Below are positions 25,383-64,000 of a stretch of DNA of 64,000 nucleotides, piece by piece. The stretch lies in contig NC_092678.1 of the NCBI RefSeq assembly GCF_964355755.1, positions 25,710,365 through 25,774,364 of the forward strand, in the 5' to 3' direction. The stretch comes from Antedon mediterranea (taxonomy: Eukaryota; Echinodermata; Crinoidea; Comatulida; Antedonidae). The position numbers were made by a program, and so were the translations under genes. The notes under the pieces are model-generated. The model did no database searches and was not told the origin of the DNA. It worked only from the letters and a program-made list of their open reading frames with translations. Position 1 is the stretch's first letter. Every line of letters starts with the position of its first letter.

Positions 25383-26308
25383 CATCATAACGTGTACATG
25401 TGTACATGCAGCTGATTAACATAATAACGTGAACATGTGTACATGTAGCTGATTAACATAATAATGTGTACATGTGTATATGTAGCTGATTAACATAATA
25501 ACGTGTACATGTGTACATGCAGCTGATTAACATAATAACGTGTACATGTGTGTACATGTAGCTGATTAACATAATAACCTGTACATGTGTACATGTAGCT
25601 GATTAACATAATAACGTGTACATGTGTACATGTAGCTGATTAACATAATAACGTGTACATGTGTATATGTAGCTGATTAACATAATAACGTGTACATGTG
25701 TACATGCAGCTGATTAACATAATAACGTGTACATGTGTACATGTAGCTGATTAACATAATAACGTGTACATGTGTACATGTAGCTGATTAACATAATAAC
25801 GTATACATGTGTACATGCAGCTGATTAACATAACGTGTACATGTGTACATGTAGCTGATTAACATAATAACGTGTACATGTGTACATGTAGCTGATTAAC
25901 ATAATAACGTGTACATGTGTACATGCAGCTGATTAACATAATAACGTGTACATGTGTACATGTAGCTGATTAACATAATAACGTGTACATGTGTACATGT
26001 AGCTGATTAACATAATAACGTGTACATGCAGCTGATTAACATAATAACGTGTACATGTGTACATGTAGCTGATTAACATAATAACGTGTACATGTGTATA
26101 TGTAGCTGATTAACATAATAACGTGTACATGTGTACATGCAGCTGATTAACATAATAACGTGTACATGTGTATATGTAGCTGATTAACATAATAACGTGT
26201 ACATGTGTACATGCAGCTGATTAACATAATAACGTGTACATGTGTATATGTAGCTGATTAACATAATAACGTGTACATGTGTACATGTAGCTGATTAACA
26301 TAATAACA
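25383..26308. repeat. 37-bp minisatellite, about 25 copies
   Basis: Near-identical units GTGTACATGTGTACATGTAG plus CTGATTAACATAATAAC. A few units are shortened. Variants alternate between GTAGCTG and GCAGCTG and between GTACATG and GTATATG. Each unit carries overlapping palindromes (TGTACA, ACATGT). Confidence 0.97.
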
Positions 26309-30998: not shown

Positions 30999-31377
30999 AT
31001 GAGTTCTAACGGTGAACCATACGAGTATTGTGATTACCAAGACGAGATAGTCGAACAGAAACGTGAATTGGAAGAGGACGAAGAAATGCCTCTTGCGGAG
31101 AAAGATCTGGCTGATGATGCCCCTTGGAAGAAAATCCAACAGAATACGTTTACAAGATGGTGTAATGAGCATTTAAAAGTCGCAAATAAGCATATAGGAT
31201 CGTTAGACACCGATTTATGCGATGGCCTACGGTTGATTTCGCTGGTTGAGGTACTGTCGCAGAAGCGAGTTGGCCGCTTCAACAAACGCCCCACATTTCG
31301 CACCATGAAGCTAGAGAATGTCACGGTTGTCATGTCATTTTTGGAATTGAAGGAAAACATCAAAATTGTAAATATCG
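30999..31377 (+). CDS. Filamin exon 1: N-terminus and CH1
   Basis: ATG chosen at [16 protein letters not shown]. The frame is open 27 codons further upstream, but that part is not filamin-like. Contains CH1 through ENIKIVNI. The donor is ATCG|GTAAGT, phase 1. Confidence 0.93.
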
Positions 31378-46300: not shown

Positions 46301-49300
46301 GTACCATAGAAATCTTACTGAAAAAAGTACCCTAGAAATCTCATTGTAAAAAGTACCATAGAAATCTCATTGTAAAAAGTACCCTAGAAGTTGTATTGTA
46401 AAAAGTACCCTCAGTTAAATCAAACAAGACTCCTACTCCGATGATGATGATCCACGCATTGACATTGTAAAAAAGGATCAGCCATTTTGGTTGCTAGACA
46501 GACAGTGTAGTCAGCTGTTGTTGGCATAATTTATATCGTGCATTCCTGGCATTTTTCTTCCCTGTGGGGTTGAGTTGCAAAAAGGGTGTTTCCTGGTTCA
46601 CCAAATATAATATAATGTATTGTAAACATTTAGCAAAAAGTAAATGTAGTTTGGGATACCTACCACAAATACCTTTGATTCCATTTATAGACCATTTGGT
46701 CCTCCTGTTTATTTCATTGTTTTGTGTTGACCTACAAAAGTATGGGTGATATTTCAATTGGTTTTAAAAAGTTAAAAAAATGAAAATTTGTAAAAAGTAA
46801 CTTTTAACAATGATTAAATATTCAAATTCAAATAGATTAAAAATTGAATAATTTATTATTATTATTATTAAAATCATAATCATATCAATTTCTACTTCAA
46901 TATGTAGCGCAGTTCATAATGTGTGATCATCTCCCTGGTGTGATTAAGTTAAATTTTGATTCAAGTATCTCTTTACTAGTTAATCTAGTTTACTATTATA
47001 AATTTCTCTATCTGTAGAGTAGTACAGAGTTGGACTAGAGTCTGTTGGAAAGGAGCTGGTCATCTCGCTGTAGTGCTTTCAAACATAGTAAATTTACACA
47101 GTTATGCAATTTTATTCAGAATAAAACTTTGTTTTCTTGCAGTTGTTGGCGCCAGAAGACATGGTCAACCCAAGGGTCGACGACCTCAGTATGATGACAT
47201 ATTTGTCAGAGTTTCCAAAAGCCAAGTTGAAGCCAGGCGCTCCATTGAGGCCAAGATCAAACTCAAAGAAAGTAAGTACAAACTGTATTGGTGGTATCTG
47301 TACATAGTTCTTTACATTAAATAATTCATGAATACGTACGTGAGTGACGTTTCGACTTGTTTTCAACAAATCTTCATGTATTGGTGGTGTTAATGTGAAA
47401 GGGACTTTATTTTGTAAACTTGTACACTAAACCTATTGTAACTTGTAAATTTAGATTACTTCATTTTTTTTACCAGACTCTGATACACCTTGTTTTATCT
47501 TTCAGGTACGTGCCTATGGACCAGGTATTGAGAAAGAGGGTAACGCCATCACAAGACCCACCCACTTCACTGTTGAGACATATGCAGCCGGTAGTGGAAA
47601 CGTCACCGTGAAGATCGTTGGCCCAAACGGTCAAGAAGTACCTAGTGAGATTAAATTTAACAAGGATAAGAATAAGACCTACACTGTAGAGTATACCCCT
47701 AAATTAGTCGGAGTACATACGGTAAGTAAATTCATTTTACAAAGATATATTTGACAGGAAAATAGGTACAGCAAGCATGTGGTATGATGTTAAATTTAAG
47801 GCCAATTTACACAGACAAGTGGTAATAGTGATAAAAATATAGAATCTATGTTATTCCTTATGACCATTTACAAACAACGCGGAGCGGACGGGCGGCTTAT
47901 GATATACAGATTCTATACTATGCAGTTTTTGTACGCTTACCGTTACCGCTCGTCTGTGTAAATTGGCCTTTAAGCTGTGAAAATTGTGTAAACATTTTTC
48001 TGAAATTGGTCAACAGGTAAACGTATCTTTCAACAATGCAGTCATTCCAAAGGCTCCATTCACAGTAGAAGTTGGTGAATTACTCACAGATCCCAGCAAA
48101 TGCTCAGCAGAAGGCCCAGGCCTACAACCCACCGGTGTCATGCTTGACAAATCCACTCATTTTGAAGTATTCACTGCTGGTAAATTAGTTTGTATTTATT
48201 TTAATTTCACCTTATTTATAGAGGGTGACCCGAAACAGCGTATGCTGACAATCAAGGGGCCCTCTTGATGAGTTTTTATAAGTGTCCGTGTGTGACAGTG
48301 ACTGTGTGTGTACTAGTACACCGAGGTAACCCCCCCCCCCCCCTACTCGTCTCAAAAGATGTACTGGTTTTTTAAAGTGCACATGAGCTAGATGTGTACA
48401 TCAACAAAAGGTGTATTACTCCGGTATAATTTTCTGTGACTTCAGAGAAGACATACTCAGTACACTGAAGTAGTTGAGTTATGTATATTCTGTAACTGAT
48501 TTTCTTCATTGGTTGCTTAGGTGCTGGACTTGGAGATGTTAGCATAACAGTAAAAGATCCAAATGGTGACACTACCACATCTAAGCTGACTGTTGAGGAT
48601 AAGGGCAAGGGTGTTTACTACTGCCAATACACCCCTACCATGATGGGAACATACATCATTGAGATCACATTCTCTGGTGCACCCATTCCAGGAAGTGCCT
48701 TCGAAGTTAAAGTTGTTCCAGGTAAGGTTTATTAATTTAATGTGGAATTTGGACAGTTTTTATGAATATTTATTGGCGTGGTATTTCACATTAAATACAC
48801 ATAATTCATTCATTATTCAACCATTTAAGCAAGCAGATTCACTTTTCACTTCACTACTTGGATTTTAATGTATTATTTATAATTATTTGTTTTTTCAGAA
48901 TTCAATTCTCAGAAAGCGTTTGCTTACGGTAGAGGCATACAACAAAAGGGATTACGTGCTAAGGAGAACTGTGTATTCTACGTGGATACAAAGAAAGCTG
49001 GAGAGGCTAATCTGAAAGTGCACATTATTGGACCTGGTGAGAACTAAGGGCCTAAGTACTAGTGCTCAATAAGGGCTGCAATAGAAATCATATAAAGGAA
49101 AAGACAGATATTGATGAGATGTATTGAGAAATAAAGAGTGGAAAAGAATGTAAAATGAAAAGATAAATGATAGTATTATATTGTTTTTAAAAAGTTTATC
49201 AATTTTCTTGTTGGTTCATTTTATTTTATTTTTTTTCTAAAATTTAAATTTCTGGTGGTGGTATTGGGATGATGGGAAATGGTTTCAAAAATAATTTATT

Positions 49301-52300
49301 AGCATAATTAATGTTGGTTTGCGACTAGTGAGAAATAAAAGTGTGTTTATTGTAGTTCATGTTTGGGTAGTTGGAGGATGATGTTGTAATGTTGTCATGT
49401 TGTCATGTCATTCTTTACTATTTGTTCATTCTTATCGTTCATCTTATGTCATCTTTCTCATCTAACTTTGTCCAAAAATGTATCAATGTTACCAATTCAA
49501 ATCCTGGATATGAAATTATTACCATATTTGGTAGTAGAAAATTCCCCAAAACAAGTGTTACTCATTTCACCAATCACCTGTGAAAAGAATGCCAACTTGA
49601 AATTACTGATGATAACAGCGTCTGATAAACATTACTCCTAGAGGGCACTCTTGTCGATAACATTATTAAACTATAATAATCTATTTCTATATGACAAACT
49701 ATATTGAATGAAGAATTGTATTGAAAAATGAATTGATTGTATACAGAATATGTATATAGAGCCGGTCATGTAAATTGCATTTGGTATTCCACTATAACAT
49801 AAACAAAGTTTCTTATTTGTTTACAATAATGTATAATATGACACTGATAGCAGCTAATTGAAAGGGCTCTTGATGGGTATTTCAAATATTTTTTTTTTAT
49901 GCACTAATGATATTAATTTAAATATTGCAATTCAATGTTAATTTTCCCAGAATTCATTTGATATTGTCACCTATTTTTGTTAGCAGCTCATAAACCCATC
50001 CAAATGTTACTAACTGAATCTAAACCTACCTTAAATTTTGTTTAGCTATTACTACTTATATGTTTATTTCAGTACTAACTTTGAGTTTGCTAATACTTCC
50101 ATAAAGATGTACTGTGTTTTGAAAACCAATGAATTTGATGTCTCTATTGATTACTGCAGTAACTCATAGTGATGTTAAATTTATTGTACATAATCTGTAC
50201 ATTTTTCTGTTTAATGTTTGTAATGATTTTCTTAATACTAACCTTATTTTGTGCACAGTAGTTGGTAGTGATGTTGATTTATGTATGACACAACAAGGTA
50301 GATAACCTGTCTTTTTCTTTTGTTATGGTTTGCTCATATTTAGTACTAACTTGGTGATCGAACCTTAGCCCTTACCAGAGCCAACAACGCGCCCTTCCAT
50401 GATTACCTTATCCATATTTAAATGGTTTTACTTATACAAGTGGTAGATGTGTTGTTAATTTTGTTTTTAACTTTATCCGTATAAAACCCAAAGTTATAGA
50501 ATGTTGTACAGAGTGTTTGGATGCACATCCAAGTTACATATTCACGCCGAGAAAAAAATATTTCCTCCACTAAATGTAAAATGAACGTTTTAGAAATGCA
50601 TTCACTCAGTTGTATTGATGGATGGTATATTGGTACTAATATTACTAAACTTATTTATTGGATATACAGTATTATTAATGATAAAAGCCTCGCATTTCCC
50701 AACTTATTACTTTAATTATCTCCATGTATCAATGTTTAATCATGTTACCAATACTTTGCCTAGGTGGAATTGACGAACCTGTGAAAGTGACCGACAACGG
50801 TGATGGTACATTCACTTGTACATACAGTCCATTCAAGCCTGGACGTTACATCGTCCACATTACCTACGGCAAGGAACACATTCCTAAGAGCCCCTTTACT
50901 GTCCACATTTCACCAGAAGCCCAAGGACAAATTAAGAATGTCCGTGCATTTGGCCCAGGGCTAGAAAGAGGTGTGGCTGGAAAGCCATGCACGTTTACAG
51001 TGGAGACAAATGGCGCCAACGGAGCTTTAGGTGAGACTTGATTTTTAAATAATGTTTAAAATAATACTGTACAACTGAATCCAATTGTTATGACAACAAA
51101 CATGTGTTGTCTTTATATGCTTACTGATTTTTATTTATTTAAAACAATAAGTAGTTTGAACCATGTAAACCAAACATGTGTTGTCTTTATATGCTTACTG
51201 ATTTTTATTTATTTAAAACAATAAGTAGTTTGAACCATGTAAACCAAACATGGGTTGTCTTTATATGCTTACTGATTTTTATTTATTTAAAACAATAAGT
51301 AGTTTGAACCATGTAAACCAAACATGGGTTGTCTTTATATGCTTACTGATTTTTATTTATTTAAAACAATAAGTAGTTTGGACCATGTAAACCATACTTT
51401 CTAAGAAATTAATCATCATCATGACCACAAAAATAAATAATTACGTGTCATGTCAAAAAGGTCACCACTCCTTCCAAGAAATGAACATTATCCGTCCATA
51501 AATGACTCCTTTGGGGTGGTAATAAATGTAGGGATTGTTATGGCATACTGATTTTAATCCAGGAAGTAACCTATGAATGTAACCACGTCATACCTGAGCC
51601 CTATCCTGTATACTAAAACCTACTTTATTGAAATTCCATTCCTATGACATCACAGGATTTATTGTTTCACAATGGTGTCACCTATAATAAGAACCCAGCC
51701 CATATCATGTTCCTTTTGGCTGTATGTACTTTACTTGGTAAAATGCTAGTAGCAAAAAGATGATTCATGGCGTCTGTATCTTTATCCCTAACCAACGCCC
51801 ACACGCCAAAAACAAGTTATGAGAATGTTATTCAATCTGGTTTGATTGATGGCCTAATAAAGTTGTATTGAATTCACCTATTTATCTCCTGACTGTCTTG
51901 AGAGGTACCGATTGGGAATTTCATTTCTGGGTTCAATGGTTTATGCTTAATTGTTCAAAGCTTGAGACATGAAAGAAGAGAAGATCATAAACCAAATACC
52001 TCACCCTCCTTCCTGTCTCGCATCACATTGTCACAATTTTGTAACAGTTATGAACATTTTTTATCAACTTTTAGGTTTTGCCATTGAGGGGCCTTCTGAG
52101 GCTGAAATCCAGTGCGTAGATAATGGAGATGGGTCATGCGAGGTCACCTACTACCCAAAAGTCCCTGGAGAATATGCCATCCATGTCACATTTGATGAGG
52201 AAGACATTGAAAACAGTCCATATATGGCAAAGATTACACCGGACACTAATGACTTTGATGCCGGAAAGGTAGGGACAATACAGCATTATTTAAAATTATA

Positions 52301-55300
52301 TTGTAGTTGGTAGAAACATGGCACATTGCAGTGATCTCTAAATAAATTAAGGCAGGGGCGCCGTTTACCTTACCTGTATTAGAAACATGGCATGTTGCAT
52401 TGAATTGATCTCTAAATAACACTAATTACATTCATGTGTACCCGTAGGTCACTGCTTCGGGACCCGGTATACAACCCGAAGGTCACGTAATGAACGAGAA
52501 GACCGAGTTTACAGTTGACGCTCGTGCTCCAGGATGCGGAAGAGCGGAACTTGAGATTATGATATTCGATCAGCTCGGTAACAAAGTTGAACCAATCGTG
52601 CGTGACAATAAGAACGGAACATGGACCGTGAGCTACACACCCACCAACCCACTCAAACACACTGTGTCTGTCACATGGGGCAAAGTGTCCATCCCCAAGA
52701 GTCCTTTCAGGGTAAGTCATTTCGTACATTGATTTCCCTGTTAAAATAAAACTTTCTGTATCTTTAGTATTAAATAAATCTGTAAAGCGCTACCTATTAG
52801 CCATTTAAACAACATAACTTTGTTATGCTCAATATTTTATCTCTATCTATATTTATTTTATTGTTTATTGATTTATTTTTCTTTTCATGTATTATACATA
52901 TATGTATTGTAGGGGCAGTCATGAGACAAGCTTTTGCTTCTAGTGCGGGCCCCAGTTATGTGTATGTATCCGAACAGTTTCTAATAATTTTTCTTGTATA
53001 GATTACAATTGGAGCAGGTGCTGGTGGTGTTAAGCTGTATGGACCTGGCCTGGAAAGCGGCAATGTGAAGTCAAAAGAACCAACTGAGTTTACTGTTGAT
53101 TGTGAAGAAGCAGGAAAAGGTACATTTAGAAAATAAAACAGTTTACGTTAATTTGAAATCTGTTACTGTTCTTGTAGCCGCCTTCTTAAGAGACATGGCT
53201 GTCATTTTGAAATCATAACAACTATGTTTGTATTGTTATTTTAGGACCGATCCAAGTAAAATGCACGTCTGCTAAGGGTGTAAATGCTAACACAGAAACA
53301 CCGATCAAATGCGATGTTATTGACAACAAGGATGGCACTTACACGGTTCACTACACACCACAGAAGCCGGGCAACTACATTGTAGAGGTCAAGTTTAAGG
53401 GCAAGGAGATCCCATTGAGTCCAATCAGTGTCCTTGTTGTACCTACAGTAGATGTTAGTAAGATTACAATCGACGGACTTCAAGAACGTAAGTATTGTTT
53501 TTATAGTATGCTAGTTTAAATATTTTGTACAATATTGTAATTGTTTTGAATTATTACATTGGAAATATAAATTTTATTTAAAAATATTTGAATAATTAAT
53601 GTCTTTTATTATGTGTAACTTGAATCTGTATTTGGAGTGTTCTCTTTTATGAATTTTATTAAACTAAAATTCTGAAGTGTTGTTTGTTTACAAAATATTG
53701 TCTAACTTTGAACTCTTTCCTTCTGTAAACAATATGGCTGCAGGCAGTTTCTATGGATACCATGACAAAATGGATGCGTGTGTGACATTTGCTGTGTTAC
53801 TGTAGTCCAGTAAAGCATGATAATCATTTTGAGATCCAAATTTTGAAATCCTAATTCATGACATCTAACTCAGAATGTGTTTGTGTTTCTAATGTTATTC
53901 TTTGACATTAATTATGTTGTTTTTTCTGCATGTTAATTTTTGTGTGATTTTTTTTTTATAATACATAGCAATACAAGTAGGAAAAGAACATACATTTATG
54001 GTGAATACTGCCCCAGCTGGTCCAGGGGATCTTGAGGGTGAAATGACAAGCCCATCCGGCAGGAAGTTGCCAATAACAATAACGCAAACACCTCGAGGTC
54101 ACGCTGTAAAATTCACACCAGAAGAAGAAGGCCAGCATGTTGTTGGTCTAACATACGCAGACGTTCCACTAACAAGACAAGCTTTCATAGTCCAACCTAA
54201 GACAGACGCTGGTAAAGTAATAGCTAAAGGAAAAGGACTAAAGGGTGGTCCAATCAACGAACCTGCTCGCTTTAGTATTGATACCAGAAAGGCTGGTATT
54301 GGAGGCTTAAACTTGACCGTAGAAGGACCAACAGAGGCGGTGATTAAGTGCGATGATAATGGTGACGGAACCTGCAAGGTAACGTACACCCCAAATTCTA
54401 TTGGAACTTACAAGATCAATGTACTCTACGCCGACAAACACATTCCAGGATCACCATTTGATGCAAAAGTGTTTGATCCCTCAAAGGTGAAAGCACATGG
54501 CCCTGGTCTAGAACCAGCCAAGACTTTTGCCACGTGCCCATGCACTTTCAAAGTGGATGCGCGTGATGCCGGAGAACCACCAATCAAAGCACAGAAGTTA
54601 TCTCCCGAAGAGTCATCCTATGGACCACTCAACGGAGATGATTTAGAAGTTAACGAACCAATGATTGGTGCGACCAAAAAAGGACCTGGAGAGTTTTCAA
54701 TTCAATGGCCAAATGAGCCTAATGCGGTGAATGAAGATCCAGTAAAAATGGACAGAGTTTTGCCGGCGCGATCCGCTCCAGGAAAAGAGAACGGCATCGG
54801 AGAAGATCCCTTTAATGACTTTCACACCCCTCATTCCAGTTCTCCACTAAACGATAAAGATAAAGCAGTGGCTGAAGACTTAATTGAATCTACCCAAATG
54901 AAACCTAAACAGTTTTCACACAAATGGGACGACGACGATAAACCAGTAACGGAAGAACCAATCTCAGCGGGTAAACAAAAACCAACTCTTTCACGAAAAC
55001 TAAGTCCTCTTGATGATTTCCCAGTGCTTGAGGATTCTTTAACTGCTGAAAGAGTTCTTCCAGTTGAATGTAACGCCGTCGGACCAGACGGTAAACCACT
55101 CGATGTCGACGTCAAAGACAACGGCGATGGAACATACGACGTCACATATGTGCCAACAGAAGAAGGTCCAGTTGATTTAGATGTCAAATTTGGCGACCAA
55201 TCTATTCCGAATTTTCCACGCAAATCTAAAGTTGGATCTCCACTTGATGTTAGTGACGTGGATGTATACGGCCACGGTGTTGAACCGGGTAAAGTACACG

Positions 55301-58300
55301 TATGATATTGTCATGCCTGACTAAACACCATGTCTTCTCAACTCTATCTCTATATTCTACTATTCTCTAATGCTTATTGGTGAAGGATCACACAAAGCAA
55401 CACATAGCTACATTTTATTCAATGTTTTGCACACTGCACTGAAGTACCAATTGTTTTACCAGCACACCCCACCCTCTTGCCTCCCAATAAACACGCTGCA
55501 CATTTTAATCAGAACTGTCCCTTTAACTTGTACTGTTACACTTGTGACTGTACAGTTAAACTTTAAAGCTATCCTATTGCAATGGTTCTCCCAGCTATAA
55601 CACACCAAACAAAAATAGCAAAGCAGGCTGCCTTTGCTGGAAGGAATAAATTATTCTGGCAAGCCTCAAAGTAAAACCAATGCTGCAACACATATCCACA
55701 GCTTATCATGCTTATAACATATTTAATTTTGAAATTTTTTGTTTATTAATCATAATTTTGTTTTTGTTATAGCCTAATTTCATTTTTGTTTCAAACACAC
55801 ATTAATAATTCATTTTTCATATTGTTTATGACACAAGTGTTCCACCAAATATCTATTTAACCATAAAATGCATCTGTAAAAATTTAAAATACTTAATCAA
55901 TTGTGTAGTACCACCATTAATGTATTAGCTTATTTCCCCAATCATGATTCTGTGTAATCTGTCTATATGCATGTTTAATGTAAATCCATTCATACCATGT
56001 GACCTAATCCAGTCTAACCAATCAGATGAATTAACATCATGAATATTCATTTTGCATGTTGCATATTTATGACATTAGTAAAAAGACATTGTTGATTGGC
56101 TGAATTGACATGGTAATCAATTATAGTAATACATGTTCAAACTTTCCAAAATCTGTTGTAGAATATTAATGTTTAATGCATAAAATATTGACTTGAATGT
56201 TGAATGTACTCTTCACTAAAACAAAATGTTATCAACACACCATTTTGACATCATCATTATTGTCAACTAATGTTGTGTTTTATTACAATATACAGAGGTG
56301 TTTGTAGGCTGCCCAACTGAATTCACAGTCAATGCAAAGCCAGTTGGACCACAGGCCAACCAGTTGAAGGATCTTATTGACTGTACTCTGCAATCACCCA
56401 GTGGAACTCCAATTAAACCTGTCATCACTGATAACAAAGATGGCACCTATAAAGCTGAATACACACCCGTGGAAGAAGGCCCTCACAAACTGGATGTGAA
56501 GGTTGCCGGGAAACCAGTTGGAAAGTCTCCATACAACATTGGTTCAAAGAAAGGATGTGATCCAAGCAAGGTGAAGGCCTACGGACCAGGTCTGGAGACT
56601 GGATTGACCGACAAGCCAGCTACGTTTACAATTGAAACCAAAGGAGCTGGTCAAGGTGGCCTAGGAATAGCAATTGAAGGTCCTTGCGAGGCAGAGATGA
56701 AATGTGTTGATAACAATGATGGTAGCTGTACAGTTGAGTACATGCCAACAAAACCAGGAGAATATGACGTACACGTTACCTTTGCTGATGCTCCTATTCC
56801 AGGTACTTTATCTGCCTCAACATTTGAATTAGGCTATACAGAAACTTATTAGGAATTGTCATTTTCCAAACATCATTAGTTTAATTGTTTTTAAATATTT
56901 GTGTTTTGTAAATTAGGAAGTCCATTCAAGCCTGTTATTAAGGATGTAGTTGACCCATCAAAGGTGGTAGTAAGTGGTCCTGGTGTTAGCCCAACTGGTG
57001 TGCGTGCCAACATCCCAGCACCCTTCCATGTTGATACCACTAAAGCAGGCCAAGCACCTTTGGAATGCACCATCTTACCAGAAAGAGGTAAATTTATACT
57101 TAATATGTATTAAGTATATAATAAGTCTGAATGTGCATGTTGATATCAAAGGTCCTGAATATTATGTTTGCACCTACTGTTTAGAATAGCATATTGTTTA
57201 TTATGTTGTGTATTATTGGTTGTACATTTAATTCTTTATCTGATATAAAAGGGCCAGTTAAAACTTATTTTAATCAGGTCAGTTGGTTCATGAGCGCTGA
57301 TTTTGGTTGGAAGGAACCAACTTAGCAGGTTAAATAACTCAACATGAACAGGCTCTTGGGCTCCCTAATCAATTATCAATGATGTTGCAAAATATTACCA
57401 ATAAATGTTAAGAAATGGTTCAAATTTTAGGTAAAATATTAAGTATACCTGTTACTAATGTCAGTGTTTGTTTCAGCTCCTAAAGAGAATGCTCAGGTGT
57501 GTGATAACCAGGATGGTACATTTGATTGTAGCTACGTTCCTAAGAATGAGGGATGTAAATGTGCTGTAGAAGTTAAATATGCTGGAAAGCATGTTCCTGG
57601 AAGGTTAGTTTAAATAACAACCAAAACATTTATTCATTATTTTTCACTAGATTATGTTTCTCATAATGCATTTAATTTTTTATCATGTCATTTACTGCTG
57701 TCGCATTAAGCTCTGTCCACACTATCATACTAGTTTGACCAACAAAAAATGTAATGTGCCCAAATATGATAGTGATATGTCCAAATATAGTAATGAAATG
57801 GCATAATTATGTCCATAATGGGCACATCACATTTGTTGTCGCATAAAGCTTAAAACTATTGATACTGCTGCACATACAGAGATAGATACGATCTACTTGT
57901 CAGTTCTGGATATGCTATTGTACAATGAATCTATCATTTCTTGCAGCCCATTCAACACCAAAGTGCTACCTCAATTTGATGCTAGCAAAGTGAAAGTAGG
58001 AGGAGCTGGTGTTCAGCCTACAGGGGTGTTGGCTAGCTTCCCTGTGGAGTTTGTCATTGACACCTCAGATGCAGGTGAAGCCCCATTAGCTATATCTATT
58101 GTTGTAAGTATACATCCGTTTTATTACACATTAACATGCAGAGCTTTTTATTTATTTATTTACCATCTTTAAAGGTGATCACCCGTTTCATTTAAAAGAA
58201 CTGATATTAAGATCCGCTGTTAAGAGAAGTCGTATGCATAAAAAGGTGCAACAACCTGTAATGTGAATTTTGTTTTGTTTTATTTATTTACAATCTTTAA

Positions 58301-61300
58301 AGGGGATCACCCGTTTCATTAAAAATGAACTGATATTAAGATTCTCTGTAAAGAGAGAGGATCTATTATATGTGACCCTTGATGGGGGAAAGAATTTGTA
58401 CAGCAATTAAGTTTGCTTCTGTTTAATCCTGTCGCCGTCTTGGGTTTTGTTTATTTGTTTTGTTTTATCATGTTTTAATTGACGAAATAAATGAAATGAG
58501 TTGTATGCATAGAAAGGTGCTGCCACCTGTAATGTAAATTTTGTATTGTTTAGGATCCTAATGGCAAGCCAGTAAAACCAACCATTGTTGACAATGGTGA
58601 TGGTACCTATTCAGTTTCCTACACACCAAAAGATATTGGTCCCTACACCATCCTCATCACCTTTGGTGGTAACAAGGTACCAGGAGCACCATTCAATGTA
58701 GCTGTGTCACCAACCGGTGATGCTTCTAAGTGTCGCATTGTGGGTAAGTCATCATTGCATTACATTTCTATTGCTGTCCCAAAAGTGGAATAGCCATTAG
58801 CAGAATAATATAATTATGTTGCCCTGAACCCTTGGCAAGGCGAGCTAACAGGAGCTGTAACCAGTAGATATGTACATCATTTTTAAGTGCAATAGCCTGG
58901 TCGCAAACTTTCGGCAACCTGACTAGAATTACGATATACTGTCAACTTGAATCCACATAGCCAGTAGGAGCTGTGACCAGTAGGTGACTCTGTAAAACAA
59001 TTGAAAGTGCTAAACTGGCCATCATTAGCACCCACATTCACCGTCACGACACCCGTCACGACACCCGTCTTGAAGCACTACGCAATGTATTAGTATGATA
59101 ATGTGTAATTTATTATTTAAAATTAAACAATGCAACAATTTATTGAATTAAGTCCTATATTCACAATGCTAATTCTTATATTTGATTATGACTACATTTG
59201 TGCATGAACCATTAACAAATGTTTCTTCCTTCAAAACCATTATCAATCACAAACAGGATGTAAAAGCGGTGGCCTTGATATTCCAGTTAAAAATGGTAAG
59301 AAATGGTTTTGTACACGTCACCCACTGCTTCATCAACTATGCTTGGAATATTCATATAAATAGCTTATGTATATTGTATATTGTGCAATATATATATTAT
59401 AGTAGTACTGTATGTAGAGAGAGGAGAATATTGTAGAGAAGTGCATACAACAGTTAGATGTCCATGTTTAAATTACATCTAGATAAACCAGTGTTGTATG
59501 TCATTATTATACAGTATAATCCTAATTCATCCATGGTATAATCATATACCTATTGTACTTAAAATTAGTACTTTCCAATATTCTCCTCTTTATATAATCA
59601 TTAAGCCTTGTCTACATTATCAAACTTTATGTGACAAAAAAATGTGATGTGCCCATATATGGACATGATGGATATGATGATGTCATATCACTACCATATT
59701 TGGGCACATCACACTTTTTTTGTCAAACTAGTTTGATAGTGTAGACAGAGCTTTGTTGTATAGCTTTAGTAAAATTCTGCTATCTTTCTCTTGCACTCTA
59801 CCACCACACCAGGTGTACAAAGTGGTCCATATGAGATACCTGTGCGACGCCAAAGCGTTAGCTCTGAGAGCACAACTACTACACGTACTACCACCACACG
59901 TACAACTACCACAAGTAAGGGGTGTGAAAACCTTTGCCATCCTCCCCTCTTAACTTTAATCATTTTGCAAGATTTATGTTGGTTGATGTGTTTTTTATTG
60001 TTAACTATATAAATTAAATTTTTTAAATCCAAATTTGTAAATTGTGTATCATAATGTTATTAAATCCTGAAGAACAATTTAATTTTGGGGAGGATTGGCT
60101 AGATAATGTTTTCCCTCTGCATGTCACATGATTGATTACAACCAATTGTCTTCTTTGAATTAATTACCCAATCATATGCATCCAATTTTGATATCCTTAT
60201 TTGGTCTTGTTTAAGTACATAATTACTTGTTTTTAATCATTCACAAACTTTCTTATAACTTTTTGTTTTCTAACTTTCATTTATGATTTAACATTTTAAA
60301 TATTTACTTTTTTTATGTTCATTATTCATTACTATAATTTCATGCTTGTTCTTCACTCCTAATATATAAATGTTTAAAACCGCTATAAACGCAATTTGTT
60401 TTTATGTAGTTGGTTTAGTTTTCGCCAACAAAGGCAGACTGCTTGGTTTGTTTGTGTCAGGTAAACATATGCATGCAATCTAGGATACGCTTGCTGCTGC
60501 ATTTAAAGTTATTGATTGCATTGTAGCTAAAAATTGACGGTGACTCACTTAATTTGTTCGTGCCAATTTGGGACTTGGTAGCTAAATGAATCTAAGATTG
60601 GAAAAGACAAAAGTCAATTGTACACTTGTATTTGCTTGTTGCATGATTGTATAATACATTTTATTTTCATTAATAATTGCACATTTCTGATGACTTGTTA
60701 AATTTTAAAATATTAAATATTATTATTATTATTTCCTGGAGTTTGCGTTTTATGTTTTTACATATTGCTAATAATGCAATGTATTTGAAACTTTTTAGTT
60801 GGTAAATGTAGTGGTTTTGTTGAGATGTTTGCACTAAATGCATATCAGGCTTGTTTTGTTTTACTGGTAATATTTCTTTGGGTTATTTGTCCTAAACCCC
60901 GAACAGTTTATTTCTGTACTTTCATTCTGAAAGACCGATTTTCAACCAACATCAGTTGATTATCATGATTTATCATTGTTGGCTGGTTTGATTAAATTAA
61001 AGAAATATTACCAAAGTTTATAATAATAATGTGGTTGAAATCAAAATGTTTATCAAGACTTGAATATTTTAATAGGAGAGACGATCACAAAGACTGTAGT
61101 AGTAGAAGAAGAAACAGTTATCAAGATCAACTCGGAAGATGCTGGACGTGGAATGGTCACTTGCGCCATCGTAGGACCAGATGATGCGGAAATTGAAGAT
61201 GTCCAAGTCATCGATAACGGAGACGGTACCTTTGACATCGTCTGGACATGTCCAATGCCTGGACGATACAACTTGGACATGAAGTTTGGCGGTATGCCAA

Positions 61301-61326
61301 TTACAGGAGGCCCATTGTCTGTCGGG
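30999..61326 (+). CDS. Filamin (actin cross-linking protein), 5' part, at least 20 constitutive exons
   Basis: Twenty exons (30999 to 61326) splice in frame into 1799 codons; the gene runs off the window. Domains: acidic N-terminus (about 45 residues), CH1 ([18 protein letters not shown], an actin-binding surface), CH2 ([14 protein letters not shown]), then 14 filamin Ig repeats, each with a [GA]xG[VIL] strand A, AGxG, an NGDGT/DNKDGT turn and IPxSPF at its end. Filamins cross-link F-actin and scaffold integrins and signalling proteins at the cell cortex. Vertebrate filamins have 24 repeats, so about ten more plus the dimerisation repeat should lie downstream. Compared with the vertebrate order as I remember it, the repeat equivalent to human 7 is missing. 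Oddities: a disordered insert in repeat 9 and three cassette exons before repeat 14. Which vertebrate paralogue (FLNA/B/C) it matches is not meaningful here. Confidence 0.97.
32895..33036. mobile_element. MITE family 1 copy
   Basis: TIRs AAGCTCTGTCTACACTATC and GTGGACAGAGCTTA. The core has TGATGTGCCCAAATATGG. Confidence 0.85.
34601..35652. mobile_element. piggyBac-like MITE, 1.05 kb
   Basis: Flanked on both sides by TTAA (34597-34600, 35653-35656), with TIRs CACTTTGACTGCCA and TGGCAGTCAAAGTG. TTAA target duplication plus this end is typical of piggyBac. Near the left end, AAACGAAGATCTTCGTTTTT-like palindromes occur twice. No transposase. Confidence 0.88.
36955..37731. mobile_element. PIF/Harbinger-like non-autonomous element, copy 1
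   Basis: TIRs GGTCGTGTTTATACAACAC and GTGTTGTATAAACGCGCCC (inverted), flanked by TTA on both sides. A 3-bp TTA/TWA target fits PIF/Harbinger. The internal frame [18 protein letters not shown] could be a remnant of a transposase-region start, but this is speculative. Confidence 0.8.
38027..38807. mobile_element. PIF/Harbinger-like non-autonomous element, copy 2
   Basis: Almost identical to 36955-37731, same orientation, 295 bp downstream. Differences seen are small indels (an extra CTC, TATA for TA) and single bases. Left flank TTA, right flank TTG. Confidence 0.85.
38874..38982. mobile_element. MITE family 1 copy
   Basis: TIRs AAGCTCTGTCTACAATATC and GATATTGTAGACAGAGCTTT. Shorter (109 bp) than most copies. 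Confidence 0.85.
39410..39720. repeat. Two-copy direct duplication in filamin intron 1
   Basis: AAAGGTCCGGTGAATACAT and GAAGGTCCGGTATATACAT head copies about 180 bp apart, each followed by AATAAACCATTG and ATCATTGCATCAG. Confidence 0.7.
40425..40585. repeat. Degenerate tandem repeat, four copies
   Basis: Units of about 45 bp share GTATA[TG]AGTGGGTT, GGACGTCA and CATTTACTTGTG. Confidence 0.7.
41750..42013 (+). CDS. Filamin exon 2: CH1 end, linker, CH2 start
   Basis: Acceptor TACTACAG|AT. Encodes [20 protein letters not shown], an acidic linker, [13 protein letters not shown] and LVDACAP. Phase 1 to 1. Confidence 0.96.
42141..42287. mobile_element. MITE family 1 copy in filamin intron 2
   Basis: TIRs AAGCTCTGTCTACACTATC and AATAGTGTAGATAAAGCTTT. 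The core has TGATGTGCCCATATATGG. Confidence 0.85.
42472..42569 (+). CDS. Filamin exon 3: CH2
   Basis: Acceptor TTAATAG|GT, donor CACAG|GTAAGT. Encodes [19 protein letters not shown] to WLNVPQ. Phase 1 to 0. Confidence 0.96.
43950..44270. repeat. Two-copy direct duplication, about 160 bp
   Basis: Both copies start TACAGAATTTAAGGAATTTC and contain TATAGTGTAATGTACCTGA, AATTAAAACATTAACTACTA and TTTTTCAAGATAAACTT. Confidence 0.85.
45199..45303. repeat. Exact tandem duplication, about 50 bp
   Basis: ATTCATTGTAGTTTAACCGC then AATGATATATCCTGGGTTATC occurs twice head to tail. Confidence 0.9.
46060..46162. repeat. Tandem duplication, about 48 bp
   Basis: TTTAAATGCTTTAGAAAGATT then GATATGATGTAAATTAAATGC occurs twice. 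Confidence 0.9.
46310..46410. repeat. Tandem repeat of about 28 bp, four to five copies
   Basis: Units AAAAAGTACC[CA]TAGAAATCT plus CATTGT. Confidence 0.85.
47143..47271 (+). CDS. Filamin exon 4: CH2 end
   Basis: Acceptor TCTTGCAG|TT, donor AAGAAA|GTAAGT. Encodes [20 protein letters not shown] to [13 protein letters not shown]. Phase 0. Confidence 0.96.
47506..47721 (+). CDS. Filamin exon 5: Ig repeat 1
   Basis: Encodes [13 protein letters not shown] to PKLVGVHT. Phase 0 to 0. Donor ATACG|GTAAGT. Confidence 0.96.
47800..47968. mobile_element. Small MITE in filamin intron 5
   Basis: TIRs GGCCAATTTACACAGAC and GTCTGTGTAAATTGGCC, flanked by TTTAA on both sides (47795-47799, 47969-47973). 169 bp. 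Confidence 0.85.
48017..48179 (+). CDS. Filamin exon 6: end of repeat 1, start of repeat 2
   Basis: Acceptor TCAACAG|GT. Encodes [17 protein letters not shown] and [19 protein letters not shown]. The donor is GCTG|GTAAAT, phase 1. Confidence 0.95.
48521..48721 (+). CDS. Filamin exon 7: repeat 2
   Basis: Acceptor TTGCTTAG|GT. Encodes [16 protein letters not shown] to [11 protein letters not shown]. Phase 1 to 1. Confidence 0.96.
48899..49036 (+). CDS. Filamin exon 8: repeat 3, first half
   Basis: Acceptor TTTTTCAG|AA. Encodes [17 protein letters not shown] to LKVHIIGP. Phase 1 to 1. Confidence 0.94.
49037..50763. other. Filamin intron 8, 1.7 kb
   Basis: No required exon: exons 8 and 9 join correctly without one. 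A 37-nt GT/AG-bounded segment (about 50268-50297) was considered and set aside. Confidence 0.6.
50764..51030 (+). CDS. Filamin exon 9: repeat 3 end, repeat 4 start
   Basis: Acceptor TTGCCTAG|GT. Encodes [18 protein letters not shown], then [17 protein letters not shown] to NGANGAL. Phase 1 to 1. Confidence 0.96.
51096..51393. repeat. 74-bp tandem repeat, nearly four copies
   Basis: Units carry ACCATGTAAACCAAACATG, TTGTCTTTATATGCTTACTG and AAAACAATAAGTAGTTTG. Copies start 74 bp apart (51107, 51181, 51255, 51329 for the TTGTCTTTA motif). Filamin intron 9. Confidence 0.93.
51394..52074. other. Rest of filamin intron 9
   Basis: No recognisable element or exon. Confidence 0.5.
52075..52268 (+). 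CDS. Filamin exon 10: repeat 4 end
   Basis: Acceptor ACTTTTAG|GT. Encodes [20 protein letters not shown] to DTNDFDAGK. Phase 1 to 0. Confidence 0.96.
52448..52711 (+). CDS. Filamin exon 11: repeat 5
   Basis: Acceptor ACCCGTAG|GT. Encodes [18 protein letters not shown] to VSIPKSPFR. Phase 0 to 0. Confidence 0.96.
53002..53119 (+). CDS. Filamin exon 12: repeat 6, first half
   Basis: Acceptor CTTGTATAG|AT. Encodes [19 protein letters not shown] to CEEAGK. Phase 0 to 1. Confidence 0.95.
53245..53487 (+). CDS. Filamin exon 13: repeat 6 end, repeat 7 start
   Basis: Acceptor TTATTTTAG|GA. Encodes [17 protein letters not shown] to [12 protein letters not shown], then [13 protein letters not shown]. 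Phase 1 to 1. Confidence 0.95.
53969..55288 (+). CDS. Filamin exon 14: repeats 7, 8 and 9 with large insert, start of repeat 10
   Basis: A 1320-nt exon, much longer than its neighbours. Repeat 7 ends [12 protein letters not shown]. Repeat 8 runs from [15 protein letters not shown] to [11 protein letters not shown]. Repeat 9 runs from [15 protein letters not shown] to [11 protein letters not shown], is interrupted by about 159 disordered residues (54586-55062), and resumes at [15 protein letters not shown] to [10 protein letters not shown]. Donor CCGG|GTAAAG. Phase 1 to 1. Confidence 0.93.
54586..55062 (+). repeat. Repetitive disordered insert in filamin Ig repeat 9 (coding)
   Basis: About 159 residues, rich in Asp, Glu, Pro, Ser and Lys. 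Degenerate units of about 22-28 residues can be aligned on [DN]-x-x-V-x-E-[DE]-x-[IL]-x-A/S followed by P-x-x-[FL]-S-x-[KQ]-[WL]: for example [51 protein letters not shown] and [15 protein letters not shown]. Confidence 0.75.
55289..56295. other. Filamin intron 14
   Basis: About 1 kb, AT-rich, no exon or repeat recognised. Confidence 0.6.
56296..56802 (+). CDS. Filamin exon 15: repeats 10 and 11
   Basis: Acceptor ATATACAG|AG. Encodes [17 protein letters not shown] to VGKSPYNI, then [16 protein letters not shown] to DAPIP. Phase 1 to 1. Confidence 0.96.
56917..57087 (+). CDS. Filamin exon 16: repeat 11 end, repeat 12 start
   Basis: Acceptor GTAAATTAG|GA. Encodes [18 protein letters not shown] to CTILPER. 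Phase 1 to 1. Confidence 0.95.
57477..57603 (+). CDS. Filamin exon 17: repeat 12
   Basis: Acceptor TGTTTCAG|CT, donor GGAAG|GTTAGT. Encodes [17 protein letters not shown] to KHVPG. Cys-rich for a filamin repeat ([11 protein letters not shown]). Phase 1 to 2. Confidence 0.94.
57707..57852. mobile_element. MITE family 1 copy in filamin intron 17
   Basis: Left TIR AAGCTCTGTCCACACTATC. The right end is diverged (CATAAAGCTTAAAACTATT). The core has AATGTGCCCAAATATG. Confidence 0.75.
57947..58103 (+). CDS. Filamin exon 18: repeat 12 end, repeat 13 start
   Basis: Acceptor TTCTTGCAG|CC. Encodes [19 protein letters not shown] to APLAISIV. Phase 2 to 0. Confidence 0.95.
58150..58553. repeat. Diverged duplications in filamin intron 18
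   Basis: GATCACCCGTTTCATT followed by AACTGATATTAAGAT occurs at about 58178 and 58304. GTATGCATA[AG]AAAGGTGC followed by ACCTGTAATGT occurs at about 58231 and 58503. Confidence 0.75.
58554..58743 (+). CDS. Filamin exon 19: repeat 13 end
   Basis: Acceptor ATTGTTTAG|GA. Encodes [18 protein letters not shown] to [17 protein letters not shown]. The donor is GTGG|GTAAGT, phase 1. Confidence 0.95.
59257..59295 (+). CDS. Filamin cassette exon a (39 nt)
   Basis: Acceptor CACAAACAG|GA, donor AAATG|GTAAGA. Phase 1 to 1, encoding [12 protein letters not shown] between flanking glycines. Skipping or including it keeps the frame. Confidence 0.75.
59603..59754. mobile_element. MITE family 1 copy between filamin cassette exons a and b
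   Basis: Ends AAGCCTTGTCTACATTATC and TTTGATAGTGTAGACAGAGC. The core has TGATGTGCCCATATATGG. It ends about 58 bp upstream of cassette exon b. Confidence 0.85.
59813..59914 (+). CDS. Filamin cassette exon b (102 nt, Thr-rich)
   Basis: Acceptor CCACACCAG|GT, donor CACAA|GTAAGG. Phase 1 to 1. Encodes [19 protein letters not shown] followed by a TTTTR-type repeat. The start aligns with cassette exon a (x-x-S-G-x-x-x-I-P-V-[KR]), so the two look like a duplicated pair. Confidence 0.75.
60410..60460 (+). CDS. Filamin cassette exon c (51 nt)
   Basis: Acceptor TTTATGTAG|TT, donor GTCAG|GTAAAC. Phase 1 to 1, encoding [16 protein letters not shown]. Weaker than a and b because it has no homologue I recognise. 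Confidence 0.5.
61076..61326 (+). CDS. Filamin exon (repeat 14), last seen in the window
   Basis: Acceptor TTTAATAG|GA, donor TCGGG|GTAAGT. Encodes [19 protein letters not shown] to ITGGPLSVG, matching the vertebrate repeat 15 region (IGEETVITV). Phase 1 to 0, so the gene continues past 64000. Confidence 0.95.
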
Positions 61327-64000
61327 GTAAGTCTTAAATCTTTTGTTTTAATGAAATTGATATTATTAATTGAATAAAGAATGCCCTGCAATGTAGTACG
61401 CATTAAACAAAATACAATAAATGACATAAATAAAACATTCATATTTGTCAGTGCAAATGTAATTTAGTTAAGTAGCATCAATACATTAATGTGCTGTGCA
61501 TGTACTACTATTATAACATTAATTCATGTTGAATGAAACCGAATGTAATTCATACACATAAATTGTGTCAAATTGCTTTTAAGTTGATATGTAAAACTAC
61601 ATTAATGAATTAACTAGATTTATGGAGTTGTTATAGCGGACTTTAATGGAACTAAAATGAGTATGCAACTTTAGTAGTGAAGAACTAATTAATAATCCAG
61701 TCTAATATGCCCTTAATTTGTTTCAGTAATTATTTTTTGTATCATAAAAAAAATAATTATTAATTATATCAAGGTTGTATTTTGTGTATGTAATTTTAAG
61801 TTAGTTCATGAATACAACATCCTTAATTTATTTCAGTCAATATTTTTAGTATTATAAAAAAAGAAATTATTAATTACAATATTCAATACAAATTATCAAA
61901 ATTATTCAATTCATTTGTTTCAACCAAATCAAATTGTAAGTTTAGTCCATGAATACAACATCAAAACAACAATGATAGTACAAAAGCTTGTATACTACAC
62001 CTCTCTCCATATATGGTAGTTGTGTAACATCTTGGTTGTCCATAGGGATATGTCTGATGTATTAGGTTCCAGTGTCTTGACATTATATTAACCTGATCTG
62101 TGTCATAATCAACACCTTAATTAAGTACCGATTAATCTTTAATTGGTCAAAGTTTGTTTAAGTCGAGTCAAAGCCCCTGGCACGTGCCTCCAGTACACAA
62201 AATTTGTTTTTCTAAGAAAGTGATAAAAAAAATGAACATTGATTTAATGAACTTAGAATAATGTTTAGTTTGCTGAGCTGTCTAGTTGAGTAACGAATAG
62301 CATTACTAATATTTAGTTTGCTGAGCTGTCTAGTTGAATAACGAATAGCATTACTAATGTTTAGTTTGCCGAGCTGTCTAGTTGAATAACGAATAGCATT
62401 ACTAATGTTTAGTTTGCTGAGCTGTCTAGTTGAATAACGAGTAGCATTACTAATGTTTAGTTTGCTGAGCTGTCTAGTTGAATAACGAATAGCATTACTA
62501 ATGTTTAGTTTTCTGAGATGTCTAGTTGAATAACGAATAGCATTACGATTTTGAACAAATGTCAAATTTTTTCAAAATGATGCTGGATTGTTATAATATA
62601 TTTTAGCACAAAATGTTTTGCTTTTACCTTTATAATATGAGCGAGTGATGTGAAATCAATTTTATAATAAACTTAATTCTTTGATATTTAACTGCTGCTG
62701 AGCAATGAACAATAATATTATATTCTTACATCAGCAGGCAAAACAAACCAGAAATGCGTTGTCAAATAATTGTTATTAGTTTAACAGCAGTGTGCTTGTT
62801 AGCATTACTCCCTCCTACCACACTCACCTCTTAATAGGTGTAAACAAGGTACTAGTAGTCTAGGGTTATCATACTCCTAATGTGTAAATTAACCGTGACA
62901 GATTGAAATTCTTTCTTGAAATTAGTAGTGGTGAACCATCATTAAGTCTGTCGTCCGTCAACATCTCTTTCAATAACTGTGCGTCTCCAATTATCGTTGT
63001 GTCGCAAACCTTATAGGGATCTCTGCCCTCTCTGTTTTATTTTCAGCGCTTATGAATTTATAAACTCCTCTTAGTGATTTATGTTCTTAGATATGTATAT
63101 GTTTTTATGACTATGGATATTGAGTAGCCTTTTGTAGATAGCAGCCACACAAATTTATACAGAAAATCGTATGCTAGTATTGGTACCTGGAAAGGTAAAT
63201 CACAAGATATAATGATGAAGGATCAGATAAAGTTAATAAATTCAAAATTTTACTTTCCTTGCAAATTTTTTTCTTTATTAGCAAAAAAATACAAATATAC
63301 ACAATCTGAGAAGGCAAGGAATAACCACAGTTTAAAATAAAACTTTGACCCACCGGCTGGTTACTCCATCACAGAGGGTTGTAAATATGCATGTAATTTG
63401 TTGAACAATAAACTTAATATGTAACATAAACTTTGTCAAATTAACCTTAATTAAAACAACTTGTTAAACTTCAATCAAATTAAATTACAGTCTATTACTT
63501 GTTTGATTAGCGCCACCCGCTAAAGCAACCGTAGGTTTTAACAGGCCAGGTACGGTACCAGTTAACTGCTTCCGGAATTTCCCCTTTAAAACCGCTAACT
63601 CTATACTGCTGGCATTCCATTGGCTATTAGAGTCTTTTAAACACATTTTGGCATTTGAGCTATGTCCAGGATGACTATACTACACCACCATTTAAGGCTA
63701 CAAGCCTAGAACTATGGAGCTAGGCCGCCAGGGGCTGATGAAAGCACGACATAGTCAGGGTGTAAACTGATATGCTAACTACATCATCTTCCAGTCATTA
63801 CAACCAGTAGGGGGCTAAACTTCTCAAATTTAATCTCAACTATTATGTTTTTTTTAATGTTTATTATTGTTTGATTATGCATTGTATGATGAAAACAAAG
63901 TACTTATATGAATGTGTATCTTAGTTATTATTGTGTTTATTAATTTGTCAATAATGATCAATCAAGCGTTTAATTTTAAATAAACATGATTGACGTTTAG
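61327..64000. other. Filamin intron after repeat 14, to the window end
   Basis: No further filamin exon was recognised, although the gene must continue. Contains a 48-bp minisatellite and AT-rich duplications (TTAATTTATTTCAGT[CA]A near 61710 and 61825). Confidence 0.6.
62260..62547. repeat. 48-bp minisatellite, six copies
   Basis: Units ATGTTTAGTTTGCTGAGCTG plus TCTAGTTGAATAACGAATAG and CATTACTA, 48 bp apart. Because 48 is a multiple of three, a minus-strand frame stays open across it; this is a repeat artefact, not a gene. Confidence 0.95.

Follow-up and report, generated by a model that had tools for sequence, protein, structure and literature searches.

Filamins are giant actin cross-linkers whose rods are usually pictured as strings of compact beads, with partners bound at the CD groove or at the hinges. 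The closest described system is vertebrate FLNC, in which Ig repeat 20 carries a regulatory insert of 82 residues that targets and regulates FLNC via partners and kinases (PMC7216277, PMC7244511). This insert is kinase-regulated, and its domain binds Xin, myopodin, myotilin, NRAP and FILIP1 (PMC7216277, PMC7244511). The partners are those of the Z-disc, and phosphorylation is carried out by Akt and PKC (PMC7244511). In rod 1, FLNA R10 alone decorates F-actin (PMC7216277), and the BC loop of repeat 10 is the site of the human FLNC myopathy variant Ala1186Val (PMC10887408). The insert of 159 residues described here also lies in a filamin BC loop, but in a different bead from that of FLNC. No earlier account of inserts in invertebrate filamins was met in the open-access literature, to which the search was limited.

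The analysed window is a stretch of 64,000 nt at C9:25710365-25774364 of a genome of 354 Mb in 18 contigs, which was searched as a whole. Its plus strand carries an invertebrate-type filamin gene with 14 filamin Ig repeats (PF00630), named A to N, at 47503-61329, and further repeats follow past the window end (L032, L033). Two N-terminal CH domain matches lie upstream of the Ig repeats on the same strand, near 31134 and 41890. The gene product is a filamin by its tandem PF00630 repeats, its two CH domains and its vertebrate-like repeat order, and the gene appears to be the sole canonical filamin of the genome. Outside the exon at 53969-55288, the gene structure was derived from simple splice scores, and the CH-to-CH splicing was modelled in part. 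A second filamin-like gene on the minus strand of C5:24799001-24839000 (L034-L037) is strongly diverged and has CH domains and apparently two tandem sets of Ig repeats. It was rejected as an outgroup for repeat I, being too diverged and built differently. Dozens of other long open frames hold one filamin Ig domain each; these are probably of the TRIM/NHL type and form clusters on C9, C7, C3 and C5, a large family expansion.

The repeats were scored against R1-R15 of human FLNA, in a sequence whose R10 is identical to PDB 3rgh. The best matches of A to N run R1-R6, R8, R9, (I), R11, R9/R12, R13, R14 and R15, so that 12 of the 14 repeats match the FLNA repeat expected from the order. The two exceptions are K, which prefers R9 over R12, and I, which scores 200 with R13, 176 with R14 and 158 with R10, the last not being its closest sequence. 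Repeat I sits between H (R9) and J (R11), and it shares with FLNA R10 (3rgh) the rod order, the Ig fold and the motif IPNFP/VPNFP near the end. The order and this motif, rather than the closest sequence, suggest that repeat I is the counterpart of vertebrate repeat 10. No counterpart of vertebrate repeat 7 was found among repeats A-N in the comparison with FLNA R1-R15, and thus the ninth repeat here would correspond to vertebrate repeat 10. The original prediction, which placed the insert in the ninth repeat, was correct in its count for this gene; in vertebrate numbering, order gives repeat 10. By the same order-based assignment, the loop holding the insert would be that of FLNC Ala1186Val. 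Repeat F (window 53029-53487) matches FLNA R6, and the next repeat is already the R8 counterpart; rod 1 would be one repeat shorter, with R7 seemingly absent.

The insert and its surroundings are as follows (positions in the window).

53969-55288, plus strand: exon of 1320 nt, phase 1 at both ends, without a stop; acceptor ...catag/CA at 53969 and donor GAACCGG/GTAAAG after 55288.
54484-54585, plus strand: strands A-B and the start of the BC loop of repeat I (KVKAHGPGL...); HMM match, PDB filamin matches and AlphaFold strands at residues 5-7 and 22-27.
54586-55062, plus strand: insert of 159 residues in the BC loop of repeat I, predicted to be disordered; no family or PDB match, pLDDT 40-58, coding statistics.
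55063-55233, plus strand: strands C-G of repeat I (...IPNFPRKSK); HMM match, AlphaFold pLDDT 82-96, Foldseek matches including FLNA R10 (3rgh).

The exon is open in one frame over its whole 1320 nt, through repeats 8 and 9 and the insert, as had been predicted. It contains most of repeat G (the FLNA R8 counterpart), H (R9), I (R10) with the insert, and the start of J (R11). HMM and PDB matches confirm that the host repeat is split after AGEPPI (54585) and resumes at 55063. The GC content of the insert (43%) is close to that of the flanking exon parts (46-47%), compared with 31% in the 13 introns of the gene. The reading frame has no stop in 159 codons, whereas 10 and 18 stops interrupt the two remaining forward frames. 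An open frame of this length occurred in none of 472 intron windows and in none of 20,000 intron-like simulations, and in 6 of 20,000 insert-like simulations. The codon score of the insert is 0.49-0.51 bits per codon, within the range of the exon flanks (0.44-0.58); the best intron window reaches -0.25. The score from synonymous choices only is small (0.02 bits), indicating that the codon signal comes from the amino-acid content. The codon signal, the absence of stops and the exon-like GC still set the insert clearly apart from the introns.

AlphaFold, run on repeat I with an alignment of 19 other filamin-type Ig domains of the same genome, gave an Ig core with pLDDT of 82-96 and an insert with pLDDT of 40-58 that is essentially without secondary structure. 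Strand C comprises residues 196-201 and starts at 55063, the boundary drawn in the original prediction. The best full-domain Foldseek match is FLNC Ig14 (TM 0.76 by target length), and FLNA R10 (3rgh) is among the first hits. FoldIndex values are -0.14 for the insert and +0.12 for the neighbouring repeat, and TOP-IDP also agrees with disorder. The insert has no Cys, 19 Pro and 31 acidic versus 19 basic residues, with a net charge of -12. Prediction of disorder and structure thus yields a disordered insert and a retained host domain; the model is one of an intact filamin Ig fold around an unstructured BC-loop insert. The super-repeat of the insert, modelled alone with an alignment of two rows only, gave a pTM of 0.17 and one possible short helix. 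A folded repeat domain, considered as another description of the insert, is unsupported by the AlphaFold models, that of the super-repeat resting on these two rows.

The degenerate repeated unit of 22-28 residues that had been claimed for the insert resolves into six units of 23-26 residues, three to each super-repeat of 73 residues.

54616-54687, plus strand: unit 1, 24 residues; self-alignment and leave-one-out test.
54688-54765, plus strand: unit 2, 26 residues; self-alignment and leave-one-out test.
54766-54834, plus strand: unit 3, 23 residues, the weakest; leave-one-out test, with 6 of 232 shuffles as high.
54835-54906, plus strand: unit 4, 24 residues, counterpart of unit 1 at +73 residues; self-alignment, genome search and leave-one-out test.
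54907-54984, plus strand: unit 5, 26 residues, counterpart of unit 2; self-alignment, genome search and leave-one-out test.
54985-55062, plus strand: unit 6, 26 residues; self-alignment and leave-one-out test.

The best ungapped self-alignment of the insert pairs residues 11-63 with 84-136 at an offset of 73 residues (18 of 53 identical) and scores 86, compared with a mean of 29 and a 99% point of 44 in 3000 shuffles, none of which reached 86. A second offset is 26 residues. The genome search independently recovered the second super-repeat copy (33% identity, E 0.06). In the leave-one-out test, five of the six units scored above every shuffle, unit 3 being the weaker one. The units share the core V-x-E-[DEP]-[PLM]-[IVFL], and units 2 and 5 contain FSxxW. 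The label of low complexity given to the insert was wrong, as its entropy is 3.96 bits and its lowest 12-residue window has 2.46 bits, where the SEG trigger is <2.2 bits in 12 residues.

The array arose as a motif of ~25 residues was duplicated in tandem, probably to three units first and then to six. Older copies agree at 49% of first, 62% of second and 33% of third codon positions (32% by chance); their dN/dS is 0.31, with pN>=pS in 1.2% of bootstraps. Other copy pairs have a dN/dS of 0.60-0.74, not significantly below 1, and for the pair at offset 73 (0.60) the bootstrap interval just includes no difference. This is modest evidence that the copies have been under some purifying selection at the protein level. 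A search of the 354 Mb genome gave no second copy of the insert, as DNA or protein, and there was no match above the Pfam cut-off and none in NCBIfam or the PDB. A match to DUF4634 (E 0.035) is below the family cut-off and was taken as chance. A transposon or a shuffled-in domain was rejected as the source, given the lack of a second genomic copy and of a family match. Derivation of the unit from elsewhere in the same gene was also rejected, since the unit profile gave no other convincing match within it. A search limited to viral contigs found no relatives of the insert there.

Three sibling repeats have introns in the BC loop, as located by splice modelling.

53120-53244, plus strand: phase-1 intron in the BC loop of repeat F (GKG/PIQVKC).
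51031-52074, plus strand: phase-1 intron in the BC loop of repeat D (GALG/FAIEG).
48180-48520, plus strand: phase-1 intron in the BC loop of repeat B.

The insert ends in the acceptor-like sequence ...ttcttccag/TT, which is in the same phase and scores -0.6. These introns and this end would be in keeping with an old exon that once lay in a BC-loop intron and, after loss of the introns on either side, is now part of an unusually long exon. BC-loop length also varies in other filamin-type domains of the same genome. The BC-loop intron of repeat D holds a 74-bp unit in four copies that are 99% alike (window 51097-51394).

Compared with the FLNC insert, the present one is likewise a long extra segment between strands B and C with possible phosphosites, and the fold of the host repeat is kept (predicted here). 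It differs in its position in the repeat-10 counterpart of rod 1 instead of repeat 20 of rod 2, in being twice as long, and in forming an acidic tandem array where FLNC has a segment with a basophilic RxRxxSxxS motif. No sequence homology between the two inserts was detected, as 166 of 500 shuffles score as well. The insert resembles that of FLNC in place and build but is not a member of its family, given the different host repeat and the lack of sequence homology. Human FLNA R10 has a short BC loop (AGSAEL), whereas repeat I has 159 extra residues after AGEPPI. The linkers of filamin hinges 1 and 2 (PMC7216277) are also flexible rod segments, but they lie between repeats and the insert lies inside one.

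The phase-1 introns of repeats B, D and F and the acceptor-like end of the insert would be in keeping with a retained, alternatively spliced or recently exonised intron, in which case the mature protein would always or sometimes do without it. However, the GT sites at 54553-54660 score -3.5 to -6.3, compared with 1.9 to 7.4 for the real donors of the gene, and every frame-preserving splice pair with both scores >0 would either damage a repeat or fail to remove the two ends of the insert. The splice-score scan found no usable pair that excises the insert and restores repeat I. Together with the exon-like GC and codon statistics throughout the insert, this shows that the segment is coding and makes intron retention very improbable; the original prediction, which preferred an evolved disordered loop to a retained intron, is supported by the GC, codon score, open frame and splice sites. 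A coding segment might still be a neutral or near-neutral spacer, tolerated in the exposed BC loop, shaped by tandem expansion and drift, and contributing only extra length or flexibility to rod 1. The variable BC-loop lengths in the genome and the several dN/dS values of ~0.6-0.7 are compatible with such a spacer. On the other hand, the 159-codon frame is still open after the copies diverged to ~34% amino-acid identity, and the older units are saturated at third positions and not at first and second ones. Furthermore, an Ala to Val change in the same loop of human FLNC is pathogenic (PMC10887408), indicating that the BC loop is not freely tolerant in human FLNC. A mere spacer is considered unlikely.

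An acidic flexible loop could also act as an entropic or electrostatic brake that weakens or gates the F-actin contact along the rod and requires no specific partner. The host repeat is by order the R10 counterpart, between those of R9 and R11, and FLNA R10 is the repeat that decorates F-actin by itself (PMC7216277); the excess of acidic residues would be increased by phosphorylation. However, a repeated motif in which V, E, P, F and W positions are conserved would be superfluous in a mere brush, and repeat I, whose actin binding in this animal is putative, is closer in sequence to FLNA R13/R14 than to R10. The brake is a rather doubtful explanation, if one to be reckoned with. The reading that we favour, tentatively and at somewhat less than even confidence, is a constitutive disordered tether on the R10 counterpart that may serve multivalent docking and is perhaps phospho-regulated. 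It is suggested by the repeated motif, four SP/TP sites, the predicted disorder and the precedent of FLNC repeat 20 (PMC7216277, PMC7244511). The insert would leave the BC loop without breaking the fold, which is predicted to be retained. Its units would offer a cytoplasmic partner several weakly binding copies of a docking motif and thereby bring that partner to the actin lattice. The SP/TP and acidophilic-kinase sites could modulate this docking, in the manner of the FLNC repeat-20 insert with its partners. The short linear motifs of the insert comprise one DPF, the four SP/TP sites and two CK2-like sites, and no other known motif stands out; in an acidic segment as long as this one, sites of these kinds often arise by chance. 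If docking or gating holds true, the motif array beside strand C of the counterpart of an actin-binding repeat would be an added route for recruiting or gating partners of rod 1. The loop is shared with the FLNC repeat 10 Ala to Val myopathy change (PMC10887408), and the folding of repeat I with the insert is thus directly testable.

Another BC-loop segment was found 7 kb past the window end, in the counterpart of repeat 20. It is a likely exon of 429 nt (143 codons, phase 1-1) at L032:7148-7576 (~C9:25781512-25781940), with an acceptor score of 1.9, a donor score of 4.4, a codon score of 0.56 and a GC content of 46%, compared with 27-32% in its introns. The exon is located in the BC loop between CDLGLKIP and GTDPLDMTAQ, and the frame is kept with or without it, so that it can be skipped in frame. 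Its composition is rich in proline and lysine and disordered-looking. The exon ends in ECDIAVKMP, echoing strand B of the preceding exon (QCDLGLKIP), and may thus carry a strand B of its own. No second genomic copy was found, and similarity to the R10 insert or the FLNC insert does not exceed chance. The 82-residue FLNC insert is located between CDLNLKIP and DMTAQV, the same spot as this exon; it was placed using an FLNC sequence in which the extra residues counted equal the published 82. The exon and the R10 insert are both phase-1 BC-loop segments of disordered-looking composition, but the former is a separate, skippable Pro/Lys-rich exon without similarity to the latter. The BC loop could be a standing insertion port used more than once per gene, for a constitutive R10 docking array and for a skippable exon at the FLNC repeat-20 position, although this generalisation is speculative and improbable as it stands. 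The two segments provide a handle on the age of the FLNC insert. Conservation of the repeat-20 exon in other animals would mean that the muscle-specific insert of vertebrate FLNC is an ancient trait of filamins that FLNA and FLNB have lost, not an invention of FLNC.

The window contains two further tandem arrays: a 37-bp unit in 25 copies that are 93% alike (25383-26307), and a 48-bp unit in six copies that are 96% alike (62259-62546). The latter has an open frame on the minus strand and lies inside the filamin gene, in the stretch that separates the R15 counterpart from the repeats after it.
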